This document shows, one piece after another, positions 542 through 6,559 of a DNA stretch of 64,000 bases. The stretch's first letter is position 1. The number at the start of each line of letters is the position of its first letter. The position numbers and the translations under genes are program-made. Location: assembly GCA_002709955.1 (NCBI GenBank), contig PAQY01000013.1:248001-312000 (forward strand), given 5' to 3'. The notes beneath the pieces are model-generated. The model searched no databases. It was not told where the DNA came from and saw only the letters and a program-made list of their open reading frames with translations. Source of the stretch: Rhodospirillaceae bacterium. GTDB taxonomy: Bacteria; Pseudomonadota; Alphaproteobacteria; UBA8366; Aestuariispiraceae.

Positions 542-641
542 GGGGGGTCCATTTTCTTAACGGTTTCCTGCTGTTAGCCCATACGACCATTATCGTCCAC
601 AAAATAACCAGACCTGCAGTTACAAAGCGACAATCAGATTG

Positions 642-1442
642 TTAAAACATGCCATTGTTTACAGCCATTTGATGACCGATTGGAATGTCGGAATTTAGAT
701 AAAAGGGGGAAGAGTCTAAGCGCATTAAATCAATTATAATCTGCTGATGTTCCAAAGATTTATTCCTGATGGCTATGTCTGCCGATGATCCGGCGTAGAA
801 GTGTGCTGGTTCACAATTATAGTATGTATTGTTTGTGCACACAGGATTGATTTTATTTCGGAAATCAAATCGGATGGCACAGTCCAAGCCCTGTTGATTT
901 GGAATAATAGCTGTCTGGTGTATTTCATTTAGTTTACCCAGCAGGTCGGGCCAAGGCATTGCTGGCAATGCCTGAAGCATTCTAATCTTATTATTAAAAT
1001 CGGGCTCTATATTAAGAAACGAACCGACTGTATGATGAGTGCTAGGATTTCCGCTCGGACCAAAAGTTTGGGTATTGTCTTCGACTGAATAGAGATTTCC
1101 GCGTTTCCAAACGATCACAAATGCAGATCGTGGCTTTAAGACTACCCAATATGATGTTTTGTTGGTGTTAGGGTTATTTACCCCAAAATTACGGGTAAAA
1201 GGTCTTTGCTGTAATGTTATGTATAAGCAAGATTTTGGGATACTTTTGTCTCTTAGTTTTTCTATTTCAAGGTCAATTTCGGACGGGTTCACCGGCAAAG
1301 TAGATGGGGCGGAAGCACCCTTAACCGTGCCGCTATTTGGGAAAGATGAAAAAAAATCAGTACCGGAAAGTGAAATAATTCCAAATACAAAAAGAAGGAG
1401 TATTGAAAGTTCAGATAGAGTGCTTTCTACAATTCGTGACAT
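642..1442 (-). CDS. Hypothetical membrane-anchored protein, last gene of the five-gene operon
   Basis: A 266-residue protein with one N-terminal hydrophobic segment (about residues 10-28) that would act as a signal anchor. The rest is soluble, presumably outside the inner membrane. A short cluster with four cysteines (about residues 185-210) could form disulfides in the periplasm. I recognise no family. Its ATG directly abuts the TAA of the preceding gene (TAAATG on the minus strand), so it is almost certainly translationally coupled to the membrane protein upstream. The DNA is clearly more AT-rich than the metabolic genes to the right, which suggests horizontal acquisition of this part. Function unknown; the operon context suggests an envelope-associated partner. 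Confidence 0.7.
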   Translation of the reverse strand: MSRIVESTLSELSILLLFVFGIISLSGTDFFSSFPNSGTVKGASAPSTLPVNPSEIDLEIEKLRDKSIPKSCLYITLQQRPFTRNFGVNNPNTNKTSYWVVLKPRSAFVIVWKRGNLYSVEDNTQTFGPSGNPSTHHTVGSFLNIEPDFNNKIRMLQALPAMPWPDLLGKLNEIHQTAIIPNQQGLDCAIRFDFRNKINPVCTNNTYYNCEPAHFYAGSSADIAIRNKSLEHQQIIIDLMRLDSSPFYLNSDIPIGHQMAVNNGMF

Positions 1443-2342
1443 TTATAAGTCACTCTTGTTTTTGCGGTGACCCCATTTACGAACTACATAGTGTGCAAAA
1501 TCAGATATTTCATTATTTGTATTTAGATCATATAAATTTAAATGAGGTGTTGTTCTGGAAATTCTTGTTACTTGTAATAACTTTATGTCTTCTTGGCCAA
1601 GGTTTGGACGACTTCCGTCTGGATGCATTCTGCACGTACAATCCTTTATCTGATTTAGTAAAGTTATGATATTCTTTGCCCAGTTGGTTTTAGAAAAATT
1701 GCTCCAGTCCAATACATTTGAACTATGTTTGTCATTATTATTGAATCCAATATTGTCCATTAGGCTGCGTGTTATCAGGCCAAAGATCGTTGAAATGATC
1801 GCCGCCCCCGCTATTGGAACAATTTTTACCCCAAATGCTAACCGAACATCCGTGCTGTTGCTGTTGCCTAGTATAGCGTTCTGGCCAGCCAAATTAATAA
1901 GCAGTGATGTTGCAATTCCTGTTTGAAGGAATCCATAGGCCAAACTAGCCAAAGTGCATATAAACCCAATGAAATAAAATTTATCTGTAGACCAGCCGCA
2001 ATTAAATAAAGCCTGTTTTGGATCTATATTTTCGAGGGTGGCGGTTGGTTTTATATTTATATAATACAAATACAGAAAAATTAATAAATATAAAAAAACA
2101 AAAAATATTCCACCAAACATAGAATGAATTATCATCTGAATAGAATTGTCTACGCTTACAAAATTTAATAAACTATTTATATTATTATTTTGAATTATTT
2201 CTAATATTTTTTCATGAAAATTTAATGTCAGGTATATTGCGAAAAAAACTGGAGCCCCGTAGCCGATCAGATCAACGATCATGATTTTGAGTCTCAGATT
2301 TCTATAAAATGTTGAAGCTGGATCAGACGCAGTTTCTGCCAT
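1443..2342 (-). CDS. Hypothetical four-helix integral membrane protein
   Basis: About 299 residues from ATG at 2342, where an AAAGGA ribosome site sits 8 nt upstream; an in-frame GTG at 2348 is a less likely start. Hydrophobic stretches near residues 22-42, 72-97, 124-152 and 170-192 predict four transmembrane helices, followed by a polar cytoplasmic-type C-terminal tail of about 100 residues. No catalytic motif or family is recognised. The gene is AT-rich, with poly-A/T runs and Asn/Ile-rich codon use unlike the flanking housekeeping genes. It sits 39 nt after the deoxyribosyltransferase-like gene and abuts the next gene with no gap, so it belongs to the same leftward operon. Confidence 0.7.
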   Translation of the reverse strand: MAETASDPASTFYRNLRLKIMIVDLIGYGAPVFFAIYLTLNFHEKILEIIQNNNINSLLNFVSVDNSIQMIIHSMFGGIFFVFLYLLIFLYLYYINIKPTATLENIDPKQALFNCGWSTDKFYFIGFICTLASLAYGFLQTGIATSLLINLAGQNAILGNSNSTDVRLAFGVKIVPIAGAAIISTIFGLITRSLMDNIGFNNNDKHSSNVLDWSNFSKTNWAKNIITLLNQIKDCTCRMHPDGSRPNLGQEDIKLLQVTRISRTTPHLNLYDLNTNNEISDFAHYVVRKWGHRKNKSDL

Positions 2343-2381
2343 AACCACAATCCTTTATGACTAATAGTCTCGTTCTCACCC

Positions 2382-3110
2382 TCAACGATGATCGAAAAGG
2401 CGTTGTTGCAATTTTCGCGCGGCATAGTTGCTGTTGTCTTCGTTCAGCAGGGCGCGGATGCGGGCTTTCAGGAAGCGATCGAAGGCGTCGGTATCGTCAG
2501 AATCGTCGCTTCCTGTGTATTTTGTGGTGTTTTCGGCTTTGGTATGCATGGCGGGATAGGCGCCGTCCTGACCGATGGGGTCGCCAGCGGGTTTGTTCCA
2601 ATCGATGAATTGGCCGACGGAATGGATCAGATCATTGCGCGCGCTTTGAATGGTGTCGGCGACATTGGTCTCTTTGCTGGTCTCGACTTTCAGATGATCC
2701 TCTGAGGTCAGGCCATAGGGAATGGGACCGACGATGACACTGGGCAGGTCAAAGATATTGACCTGTTCCCGATCCAGCAGACCGATTACGGAATGGTTGG
2801 GATTTTCCTTTGCCACCGCATAGCGCAAGGCCAGGCAGAACATGACAATCGGGTCAGCGGTGGTGATATTGGCGATCACTAGGTCCGCTTTTGACGTATA
2901 ATCTTTGTGTTCGCGCGTCATGTTACCCGACCGCGTGATATGAGAGGATCGAACAATCCTGAATCCCCGACCGGTGATGGATGGCTCTATGATCTGATTG
3001 AAGATCGTATTTAAGTCGCCATGGGTCAGGGCATGGGGATGCGCGTCATCGCGCTGTTTCACAGGGGTCGGCTCCAGCACGAAGCACAAATTTGTATCTT
3101 TGATCGTCAT
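2382..3110 (-). CDS. Nucleoside 2-deoxyribosyltransferase/TIR-like domain protein, degenerate active site
   Basis: Start chosen at ATG 3110 because GAGAAGGG lies just upstream; longer frames run into the preceding gene. The first 110 of 242 residues follow the nucleoside 2-deoxyribosyltransferase/TIR-like pattern: beta strand with C-F-V-L-E-P (9-14), a His-Asp-rich helix leading to I-I-E-P-S (40-44), a G-F-R-I-V-R strand, then A-D-L-V-I-A-N-I-T-T-A-D-P (75-87). In active family members the last motif continues into an N-V-x-Y-E-L-G helix carrying the catalytic Glu. Here that helix reads I-V-M-F-C-L-A-L, so the Glu is absent and the protein may bind rather than hydrolyse nucleotides. The C-terminus is acidic and helical. 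Such domains act as sensors or NAD/nucleoside hydrolases in bacterial conflict systems; a role here is inference. Confidence 0.6.
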   Translation of the reverse strand: MTIKDTNLCFVLEPTPVKQRDDAHPHALTHGDLNTIFNQIIEPSITGRGFRIVRSSHITRSGNMTREHKDYTSKADLVIANITTADPIVMFCLALRYAVAKENPNHSVIGLLDREQVNIFDLPSVIVGPIPYGLTSEDHLKVETSKETNVADTIQSARNDLIHSVGQFIDWNKPAGDPIGQDGAYPAMHTKAENTTKYTGSDDSDDTDAFDRFLKARIRALLNEDNSNYAARKLQQRLFDHR

Positions 3111-3124
3111 TGTGTTTGCCCTTC

Positions 3125-3940
3125 TCAATATTCCAGGGAAAGCCGAAATGCCTTTGCTGGCATGGTTGTCTTGAAGAAATCGGTCCAAAAGGCGCGAAAC
3201 TGGGTCGCTGGGCCGGGGGGCAGTAAAGCCGCCGCATATCCTTTTTCTTCGATCAGACTCTGTTGTCCCAATCGCTTGCCAAAGCCAAAGGCCGAAACAG
3301 TCGCATTTGCCAGAAAGTGATTTTCGGGAATAACCCCACGCGCCTTGCGTTCCAATTCTTGCCGCGCTTTGAGATCAAACCCGTTGATTTTTTTGTTTAG
3401 CGGAGAGTATTCCAGCATATCGGAGAATATGTAGAATTTGCTGATTGAACTGTCGGCATATTGATAGGTCAGGTTCTCCAGGGTGTTGACCAGATGGGTC
3501 GTGTCAGAAACTGCGGGCACGGTGTTCAAATCATTCATGAACTTTGTAAATGCGGCGACAAACAGGCGTTTATCGCGCTGAATCAGAACATTCGAACAGA
3601 TATGCTGCCAGTTGGAATTGCCGGATTCGATTTCATCTGGACAGCCCGGGATGCAGGATGAAAAGGCGCGCGTTAAGGCACCGGGCTGCCCGGCGATCAG
3701 ATAAACATCCAACTGGTTGCCCGGAATCAGTTCCTGGAATATGCGATTGAAGCCTTCGGCAAAGCGCGTCATGTCGATGGTGTCGAAGTTTTCTGTTCGA
3801 TCAATCAGCATCAGGGTGTGGGGGGGCGGACTGGTAGGACCGCAATAGTTGGAATATGCCTGTGCCTGTGCGGTGTCGGGGGTGCTGACGCTGACAAGAA
3901 GTGCCAGAAATCCCAATAGGGACGGGTGTAACTTTGTCAT
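3125..3940 (-). CDS. Secreted von Willebrand factor A-like protein
   Basis: 271 residues with a clear signal peptide (cleavage after A-Q-A, about residue 26). The mature part begins with a VWA/integrin-like first strand, L-M-L-I-D-R-T-E-N (43-51), in which Asp47-x-Thr49-x-Asn51 sits where the MIDAS D-x-S-x-S loop would be. Later strands K-F-Y-I-F-S-D-M and V-S-A-F-G-F-G fit a Rossmann-like alpha/beta fold. Four cysteines (one near the mature N-terminus, three near residues 95-120) suggest disulfides. The substitutions make metal binding uncertain. The start codon overlaps the end of the upstream gene by 4 nt (ATGA), so it is coupled to the coiled-coil membrane protein. Likely a periplasmic adhesion or scaffold component; exact role unknown. 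Confidence 0.6.
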   Translation of the reverse strand: MTKLHPSLLGFLALLVSVSTPDTAQAQAYSNYCGPTSPPPHTLMLIDRTENFDTIDMTRFAEGFNRIFQELIPGNQLDVYLIAGQPGALTRAFSSCIPGCPDEIESGNSNWQHICSNVLIQRDKRLFVAAFTKFMNDLNTVPAVSDTTHLVNTLENLTYQYADSSISKFYIFSDMLEYSPLNKKINGFDLKARQELERKARGVIPENHFLANATVSAFGFGKRLGQQSLIEEKGYAAALLPPGPATQFRAFWTDFFKTTMPAKAFRLSLEY

Positions 3941-5280
3941 TCGACCAATACCTCCTCGCCCAAAAGTTTTAATCCGAAATTGCCAAAATAGACGGGCCGT
4001 TGCGACATGCGGGCCTGGGCATTGCTTTCCTGATAGGCGGTCAGTTGCTGGGACAGGATGTTCAGGACCGTGCGGATATCATTCTCGATCTGACGCTTTA
4101 GCTGCATCCGCTCTTCTTCAAGCCTTTGGATATCCTGATCAATTTGATCGGCCAATCGCTCGGCGGAGGATATCCGTTTGGACATATCGTTTTCCACGTC
4201 GGACGCATCGCGGTTGAAATCGCGCATATAGTAATCAACGGCACGTTCCGTCTGGCGCTTTTTCAAATAGGCTTGCTCCAGCTCTGGCTCCTTATCGTGG
4301 CGCAGGCAGGACAGAACCGTTCCGATCAGCAACACCAGCCCGTTCAAAAGCAACAAACCGACCTGGGCGAAGTTGCTTTCTGTCGGGTCGCCGAACAGAG
4401 CATTGGATAGATTTCTAAACAGGTTTGAAAAGAAGTTGCTGGCCCCGATCTGCGCCACTTCGGGTGGGGGTGTCGCCCCTGGCACCTGAATAATTGCAGA
4501 TTGCGCGGCAACCGTTGCCGTGACTTCCCCGCGCATCTGGAACAGCACCAGGATCATGGTCGCCATCAGCAGCAGGGTCAGCAGGATAAGCACCAAATGC
4601 CACACTTTATGCCAGCCGGACACAGCGATAAATCGCAGCATCTGGACGCCTAGAAAATGGGCCTGCAGGATAAAGGTCACACCGACCAGGAAGGCGATGA
4701 TGTAGGATATCCAGGCGGAAAATTCGAAGGATAACTGAATCGCCAATTGATTGACCGGCACTTCCAGAACAGCGAGAAACAGCAGGACCAGAATGTAAAT
4801 GGACAGCCACGAGAACCAGGGTCGGTCAATAATGGGTTCATGCATGCGCAAACTGGGCGCGCGCCCGAATTCGTGTTCCCGCTCGCGATAGGTCCGGTTC
4901 GCCTCATCCCGTTGCCGCACCAATTCGGTATAGCGATGCGATCCCTTGCCAACCAGGTCATTCACCCGTTGCAGGCGGGATTGCTTTTCCACATACAGCG
5001 AGCTTTTCCGTGAACTGTAATCGTCATCACGCAATGAGACGAATTCACGGATGCGCAAATCGATCTTGTCGATTTCGGTGCGCATGCGCCGGATATATTC
5101 GTTCAGGGCGGTCCGGGCTTCAGCAATGCGATAGGCCTCATGCGGAGAAAAGTCGGTATCTTGTGCCGCCGGTAATTCCCGGTAGCCATCCTCAGCCCCC
5201 CGTTGCCGATCAAGGCGCGCGTCTCTGCTGCTGAAATTCTGGTAATAAGCCAGAGTTTCAGCCGCTATAAATCTATCCAT
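3937..5280 (-). CDS. Hypothetical membrane protein with flanking coiled coils, first gene of the operon
   Basis: 447 residues from ATG 5280; a TTG at 5295 is in frame, but a run of G residues 5 nt upstream of 5280 fits a ribosome site better. Architecture: a highly charged helical region (45-140) typical of a coiled coil, three transmembrane helices (about 158-176, 189-210, 227-247), a periplasmic-looking Pro/Ala loop (250-300), a fourth helix (306-326), then a second long charged coiled coil (330-415). No known family is recognised. The layout of coiled coils on both cytoplasmic sides of a four-helix core resembles force- or signal-transmitting membrane proteins. The next gene overlaps by 4 nt. 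It heads the operon that runs leftward to 642. Confidence 0.7.
   Translation of the reverse strand: MDRFIAAETLAYYQNFSSRDARLDRQRGAEDGYRELPAAQDTDFSPHEAYRIAEARTALNEYIRRMRTEIDKIDLRIREFVSLRDDDYSSRKSSLYVEKQSRLQRVNDLVGKGSHRYTELVRQRDEANRTYREREHEFGRAPSLRMHEPIIDRPWFSWLSIYILVLLFLAVLEVPVNQLAIQLSFEFSAWISYIIAFLVGVTFILQAHFLGVQMLRFIAVSGWHKVWHLVLILLTLLLMATMILVLFQMRGEVTATVAAQSAIIQVPGATPPPEVAQIGASNFFSNLFRNLSNALFGDPTESNFAQVGLLLLNGLVLLIGTVLSCLRHDKEPELEQAYLKKRQTERAVDYYMRDFNRDASDVENDMSKRISSAERLADQIDQDIQRLEEERMQLKRQIENDIRTVLNILSQQLTAYQESNAQARMSQRPVYFGNFGLKLLGEEVLVE

Positions 5281-6559
<1,279 letters not shown>

Follow-up and report, generated by a model that had tools for sequence, protein, structure and literature searches.

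Zorya is among the described systems closest to the locus reported here. As set out in the available part of PMC11890865, it pairs ZorA, a transmembrane (TM) protein with a long coiled-coil tail, with ZorB, a TM protein with an OmpA-like domain, and has a nuclease in its company. A second comparison is offered by vWA proteins encoded beside TolQ-like motor genes, which the accessible part of PMC12204202 describes as force transducers of unknown function. Here we analyze a 64,000-nucleotide stretch of a Rhodospirillaceae genome ('the window'; contig PAQY01000013.1, positions 248,001 to 312,000) and a leftward operon of five genes, g1 to g5, near its start. This operon is a divergent, mosaic member of a cell-envelope cassette found in many alphaproteobacteria. 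The cassette is apparently undescribed so far – we found no account of it in the open-access literature, a collection short of most subscription journals. The operon most likely works like Zorya, as an ion-driven envelope defence machine, without being a member of Zorya, though we hold this functional reading tentatively.

In its common form the cassette encodes, in order, a membrane protein whose four TM helices are flanked on each side by coiled coils (the CC-TM family), a VWA protein, a third TM protein and a fourth TM–OmpA protein. It resembles Zorya in that a TM protein with a coiled-coil tail (in typical members) is paired with a TM–OmpA protein and has a nuclease in company. It differs from Zorya (ZorA–ZorB with ZorC/D, ZorE or ZorF/G) by adding the VWA and CC-TM proteins, neither of which the available part of PMC11890865 lists for Zorya, and by using as its nuclease a staphylococcal nuclease (SNase), which in two genomes is fused to the TM–OmpA protein. 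Matches of the third protein to the ZorA models of PADLOC and NCBIfam lie in its tail region, and we did not count them as homology. Up to E 1, neither g4 nor g5 matched ZorA or ZorB in PADLOC or NCBIfam, and none of the ZorC–ZorG effectors was found among g1–g5 in these collections; judged by sequence, the operon falls outside Zorya. As with the vWA force transducers, the vWA gene of the cassette neighbours genes for a presumed 5:2 motor. Compared by description, within the accessible part of PMC12204202, those proteins have their vWA domain attached to the motor, where it serves as transducer or axle, whereas the VWA protein of the cassette is separate and stands beside OmpA-type B and CC-TM proteins.

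The five-gene block and its cassette

The features of the block, in window coordinates, are as follows.

3937..5280, minus strand: g1, 447 amino acids; coiled-coil / four TM / coiled-coil membrane protein of the CC-TM family
3125..3940, minus strand: g2, 271 amino acids; predicted VWA-fold protein with a signal-peptide-like N-terminus and conserved C33, C96, D47 and S173-D174
2382..3110, minus strand: g3, 242 amino acids; nucleoside deoxyribosyltransferase (NDT)/TIR-like protein with the usual catalytic Glu replaced by Cys
1443..2342, minus strand: g4, 299 amino acids; multi-TM protein with a short tail, occupying the third (motor-A-like) position of the cassette; AT-rich
642..1442, minus strand: g5, 266 amino acids; anchored by a single TM helix, occupying the MotB-like position of the cassette; AT-rich, OmpA domain not found
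552..5420, no strand: block missing from G011, a genome of the same genus (blastn breaks at about 551 and 5421; breakpoints approximate)

The original prediction had described five tightly packed leftward genes, and its coordinates and junctions were all reproduced: g1 and g2 overlap by 4 nucleotides, gaps of 14 and 39 nucleotides separate g2 from g3 and g3 from g4, and the TAA of g4 is followed directly by the ATG of g5. This spacing argues for a single transcription unit, as had been proposed; a promoter and terminator scan of the block was uninformative. The AT-rich portion it noted is real, with GC contents of 0.338 for g4 and 0.396 for g5 against 0.51–0.54 for g1–g3 and 0.557 for the whole window. 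Its TM counts held for g1 (four hydropathy peaks) and failed for g4, which shows three peaks where four had been expected; g5 shows one. The block is flanked by mdh and by a YqaA/DedA-like gene, whose identity was read from its sequence.

Scans of g1–g5 against Pfam and NCBIfam yielded no match above curated cut-off for any of the five proteins. PADLOC returned nothing under E 0.01 except LeoC for g1 (E 2.1e-4), a match that is probably due to coiled coil and was set aside, and in PHROGs, which has no curated cut-offs, g3 alone had clear matches, to two families of unknown function. The proposal that the set matches no known system is thus borne out at the level of curated families. The uniqueness claimed for it is not: g1 and g2 define a widespread cassette, in which g4 and g5 sit at the motor-A-like and MotB-like positions.

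A tblastn search of plasmids with g2 returned one weak match, Rhizobium sp. BG4 pRPC1 (21% identity, E 5e-4). On this plasmid an SNase gene precedes four genes in the same order, which encode a CC-TM protein, a VWA-like protein, a coiled-coil-tailed membrane protein and a TM protein that weakly matches OmpA; the corresponding searches gave no matches for g1, g4 and g5 and seven for g3. Within the class, a g2 alignment matched 12 of 385 genomes, its own included, and led to 12 loci in the 11 others. A CC-TM gene directly precedes the VWA gene in all 12 (as a mere fragment at a contig start in L051), and the third protein is present in eight. Models built without window sequences recovered both g1 (E 3.9e-28; best of 999 shuffles 0.15) and g2 (E 6.5e-21). 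With its adjacent CC-TM and VWA-like genes, the window has the pair by which we recognize the cassette, and g1 and g2 clearly belong by sequence to this conserved alphaproteobacterial group.

Among the scanned genome contigs we found 213 relatives of the third protein among 229 stretches; the best 80 of the 213 provide the counts out of 80 given here. That search did not draw on the CC-TM or VWA genes, but the models that recognized these came from the loci collected before, of which Tistrella pTM3 turns up again among the 80; several of the 80 are near-identical. All 80 loci carry the CC-TM, VWA and third-protein genes in order and 78 also carry the OmpA protein, the remaining two loci stopping at a contig end. 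Record titles place nearly all of them in Alphaproteobacteria, apart from one metagenome-assembled genome labelled Flavobacteriaceae and one record titled only 'Bacterium'. The VWA profile matched 8 of 43 genomes of the order, the window's own included, and 14 of 398 in the phylum – 11 from the same class (again with its own) and three others weakly (E 1.5e-5 to 1.7e-4). No relative of the third-protein profile was found in viral contigs. CC-TM relatives occur on 24 plasmid records, 11 of which were typed as conjugative. On Rhizobium johnstonii 3841 pRL11 the cassette corresponds to RL_RS31080-31095, with a convergent thermonuclease gene, RL_RS31100, adjoining, and a thermonuclease gene also adjoins the cassette in two further plasmid records inspected. 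The conserved four-gene cassette, present in many alphaproteobacteria and on symbiont plasmids such as pRL11, carries no annotation on pRL11 beyond 'hypothetical' for three proteins and 'OmpA family' for one.

Variants of the arrangement were also seen. In L150 (G395) and L151 (G006) the CC-TM/VWA pair stands beside a VirD4/TraG-type coupling-protein gene and a serine-recombinase-like gene read from sequence, a context that differs from that of the motor cassette. The coupling protein of L151 matches Pfam T4SS-DNA_transf (5.4e-38), that of L150 was read from sequence, and the CC-TM gene of L150 is cut by the contig start. In L152 (G003) and L153 (G002) the VWA-like gene lies next to a different multi-TM protein, joined in L152 by an OmpA-domain protein; these may be another way of building the same kind of system. 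In G007 (L033, L148) the end of one contig carries a CC-TM gene and the end of another the VWA and third-protein genes, probably one cassette split by assembly. A DUF4236 protein (L108 6452-7651, Pfam 2.3e-14; similar proteins in 12 of the 80 loci) is mostly found directly downstream of the cassette.

In g1, which aligns with its CC-TM relatives, coiled coils lie on both sides of the four TM helices defined by hydropathy, presumably on the cytoplasmic side. For g2 the original prediction had proposed a VWA-like protein with a signal peptide. A VWA fold is indeed predicted: the AlphaFold model (predicted local distance difference test, pLDDT, 74.6; predicted template modelling score, pTM, 0.73) aligned with VWA-type folds at Z 9.8–12.0 among the 50 rows listed, nearly all titled as proteins that we take to hold VWA or VWA-like domains. 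The signal peptide was read from the N-terminus, where the segment stays below the hydropathy threshold used; two conserved cysteines (C33, C96) are consistent with a periplasmic location. A complete metal ion-dependent adhesion site comprises DxSxS, T and D. In g2 the metal site is conserved only in part, as D47 and S173-D174. When the PDB was searched by sequence for the g2 family, nothing beyond faint signs of VWA emerged (collagen VI at E 0.014, integrin alpha-M at 0.15), and a larger alignment gave none. Outside the genus, g2 identities are 28% to L053, 25% to L047 and 14–18% to the others.

The presumed motor pair and g3

The fourth cassette protein has an invariant acidic residue in its TM helix, and its profile (from an alignment of 24 rows that included g5) matches PomB at E 7.6e-5. 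The cassette is thus like MotAB/PomAB, TolQR and ExbBD in this acidic residue and in a fourth protein related to PomB in the peptidoglycan-binding domain, and unlike them in a third protein for which no sequence relation to MotA/ExbB/TolQ was seen. Two TM helices of the third protein contain conserved threonines, and typical members also have a coiled-coil tail. A PDB search with its TM core retrieved neither ZorA nor MotA up to E 1, and its full-length profile matched mostly coiled-coil and helical-bundle proteins among the matches listed (60 of 102). Because the third protein shows no relation to MotA, TolQ, ExbB or ZorA outside the tail, we infer its motor role from company and topology.

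Sequence comparison weakly supports g4 as the third cassette protein. It scored E 0.0059 against a third-protein model from which window sequences had been left out (the best of 999 shuffles reached 0.51) and keeps 15 of 33 columns that are invariant in 30 relatives, where shuffled residues keep at most seven. The case for g5 as the fourth protein is very slight: of 42 columns that do not vary among 23 relatives it keeps nine (shuffled residues, at most seven), including the T, E, L and F of the TM helix, and a TM model scored it at E 0.55, with 2 of 425 decoys higher. Aligning g4 and g5 to the family biases both column counts in its favour. A Pfam scan gave no match of g4 to MotA/ExbB/TolQ (PF01618). 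In Foldseek, 14 of the 50 rows listed for g4 are ZorAB, TolQ, PomAB, MotAB or ExbBD chains, taken as A subunits by their length, and g4 aligned with PomA at Z 6.6 (root-mean-square deviation 5.1, 146 aligned residues). We did not use this likeness to motor A subunits as proof, as the Foldseek E values were 4.7 to 9.0 and the PomA score was not above that of unrelated helical rows. Among 357 and 369 genomes searched, respectively, g4 and g5 were found in no other genome; G009, which has both, lay outside the searched set.

Within the cassette, g3 is found only in the window's own genome and in G009. The deoxyribosyltransferase/TIR-like identity originally assigned to it agrees with its sequence relatives (phrog_3634, E 6.2e-10), and the activity that this name implies is doubtful. 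The usual NDT/TIR catalytic motif is NPNxxYE, with Glu as the catalytic residue. Both g3 and its G009 orthologue read DPIVMFC, and because Cys replaces this Glu the protein is probably not an active nucleotide-processing enzyme. It aligns with the N-terminal NDT/TIR-like domain of proteins that carry TPR-S sensors, one of which has a TIR gene as its neighbour on a Vibrio plasmid, and two TPR-S-bearing relatives match a TIR effector model in the stretch aligned to g3. Unlike these proteins, g3 has no TPR-S match in Pfam and lacks the NPNxxYE glutamate. It found no sequence match in the PDB and no relative in viral contigs, and neither g3 nor g4 found anything in phage records. The Vibrio coralliilyticus plasmid locus (L027 4244-7233), where a TIR protein is encoded together with a TPR-S-bearing NDT-like protein, has the look of a conflict system in its own right.

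Probable transfer, and selection within the genus

Two of six genomes of the genus carry g1 (the window's own and G009), and all six carry mdh. In G009 two contigs hold the block; they share 99.97% identity across 11.7 kb and probably reflect duplication in the assembly. G011 is missing the block and has mdh next to yqaA. In G010–G013 neither g1 nor g2 found a match and the mdh–yqaA spot holds no comparable block, although g3–g5 were not searched singly in all four; the genes were therefore not seen scattered or independent in close relatives, an outcome the prediction had named as evidence against it. The empty site in G011, the patchy distribution in the genus and the 24 plasmid records with g1 relatives indicate that the five-gene unit was probably transferred, consistent with what had been suggested. 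At the same spot in two other genus members lies a gene for a short, secreted-looking 135-amino-acid protein (L023 3947-4354 and L025 2315-2722), and the spot may take variable cargo.

All five reading frames are kept in G009, a second species of the genus at ~91% DNA identity. The ratios of nonsynonymous to synonymous substitution rates (dN/dS) are 0.03 for g1, 0.09 for g2, 0.19 for g3 and 0.25 for both g4 and g5; all five genes are under purifying selection between the two genomes, and the block is more than a chance assembly. The synonymous rates themselves are uneven, with dS of 0.60, 0.59 and 0.38 for g1–g3 and 0.13 for each of g4 and g5, against 0.34, 0.49, 0.48 and 0.27 for four neighbouring genes other than mdh. 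Within the last quarter of g3, dS drops to 0.14. This uneven dS along the block and the step in GC suggest that g4–g5 were exchanged as a separate module, although base composition can also lower dS.

Nuclease partners and likely function

SNase genes lie in the flanks of 36 of the 80 loci (32 by clustering alone). Fourteen of the 36 are on the same strand and within 400 bases before the first gene, and 13 are on the opposite strand. Across ~127 Mb from 20 of the SNase-bearing genomes we counted 74 SNase genes, the cassettes' own included, or ~0.006 expected per 10 kb, so that less than one would be expected by chance among the 80 loci. In two further genomes, at L052 and L051, a single protein carries OmpA and, behind it, SNase as fused domains; both SNase matches exceed the Pfam cut-off (3.4e-13 and 9.2e-7), as does the OmpA match in L051 only. 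A hydrophobic N-terminal segment, by the same hydropathy threshold, is present in 22 of 33 SNase proteins. From these segments, and from the fused domains lying behind a TM helix and an OmpA domain, the cassette SNase is probably periplasmic.

Defence genes also occur near the cassette. We scanned 115 of 161 flank proteins from 20 loci and, for comparison, 115 of the 174 proteins encoded by 20 control stretches in these genomes; genes were picked by length and by GC content at third codon positions, control positions were hand-picked and relatives recur in the sample, so rates are approximate. Three flank proteins matched PADLOC very strongly – GajA of Gabija (1.1e-236, in L120), an Argonaute (pAgo, 1.9e-220) and AbiEi of AbiE (2.4e-97). 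In all, 45 PADLOC families matched at 1e-15 or better, the first 25 of them listed, and many of these families are several models on one protein; in the controls six families matched, none better than 3.6e-23. Outside the 20 loci, L108 has a candidate PDC-S37/Hhe match. The proximity to defence genes that the original prediction had proposed to look for thus exists for some relatives, although by number of matching proteins flanks and controls are closer than the family counts imply and the contrast lies in the strength of the matches; in this small sample it is suggestive of a defence role.

On the Zorya-like reading, the third and fourth proteins would make up a wall-anchored complex powered by ion flow, the VWA protein would sense or transmit a periplasmic disturbance, and the CC-TM protein would couple it to the cytoplasm. 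An effector would then act on incoming DNA – usually an SNase in the periplasm, with g3, in the window copy, as a possible ligand-binding or signalling part. A more specific form of this scheme, which we regard as unlikely, would be a separate line of defence: the anchored complex and its VWA sensor bring SNase onto phage or plasmid DNA before or during inner-membrane crossing, and the window variant has exchanged the nuclease arm for an NDT/TIR-like signalling protein and swapped its motor pair as a module. If the cassette does defend, it would be a second motor-type defence beside Zorya, with the nuclease in some genomes on the periplasmic side of the complex; we found no such attachment of a periplasmic-side nuclease to a motor complex in the open-access literature. 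Where and how Zorya-type systems sense phage would then become directly testable, by comparing periplasmic with cytoplasmic nuclease action.

Several observations weigh against this Zorya-like reading. In profile–profile comparison the third protein matched PF01618 with a probability of 4.5, below the 7.8 of an unrelated control, and its ZorA likeness is confined to the tail. In the window, the g4 fold model is weak (pLDDT 65.8), g5 matched no whole-protein family model and showed no OmpA domain in the Pfam scan, and the differences of g4–g5 from g1–g3 in GC and dS possibly reflect separate acquisition. Four of the 12 class loci hold only relatives of g1–g2. No SNase was found in 44 of the 80 loci, 13 of the 36 present are on the opposite strand, and the window has none, the sole SNase of its genome being on another contig. 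The defence contrast is small as well: three very strong flank proteins stand against none, by number of matching proteins the sets differ much less (up to six in the controls), and individual scans of ten flank proteins left eight with no match at 1e-20.

These points bear differently on the alternatives. The cassette could be an ion-driven force transducer for envelope upkeep, transport or motility without a defence role, as the description of vWA force transducers in the accessible part of PMC12204202, the OmpA/PomB-like anchor and the CC-TM/VWA pairs without motor genes in four of 12 class loci would allow; we consider this somewhat unlikely for a cassette that is accessory, patchy and plasmid-borne, is associated with and even fused to SNase and has some defence genes as neighbours. 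The SNase association would equally suit a barrier to, or processor of, non-phage foreign DNA, through exclusion of conjugating plasmids or periplasmic DNA scavenging, and so would carriage on plasmids (11 of 24 records conjugative) and the pairing with coupling-protein and recombinase-like genes in L151 and L150, the L150 coupling protein being read from sequence. That coupling-protein context was seen in only two loci and phage-defence genes also flank the cassette, so we rate this account as improbable.

A third alternative concerns the window itself, where g1–g3 might be an older motor-less unit joined by an unrelated AT-rich membrane pair. The closest g2 relatives outside the genus (L053 and L047) have no motor genes, g5 has no significant match, g4–g5 stand apart in GC (0.34–0.40) and in dS (0.13 against 0.38–0.60 for g1–g3 and 0.27–0.49 for the four neighbours), and among the genomes searched neither gene was found elsewhere. 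Against this, g4 keeps 15 of 33 invariant columns and outscores all 999 shuffles, purifying selection acts on all five genes and the gene order is that of the cassette; we assign it a marginally lower probability than the foreign-DNA barrier. The Zorya-like envelope machine remains the account we tentatively prefer.

About 11 to 15 kb to the left of the window start, integrase-like and HNH-like genes read from sequence lie together (L006 74-3589), possibly a small mobile element.

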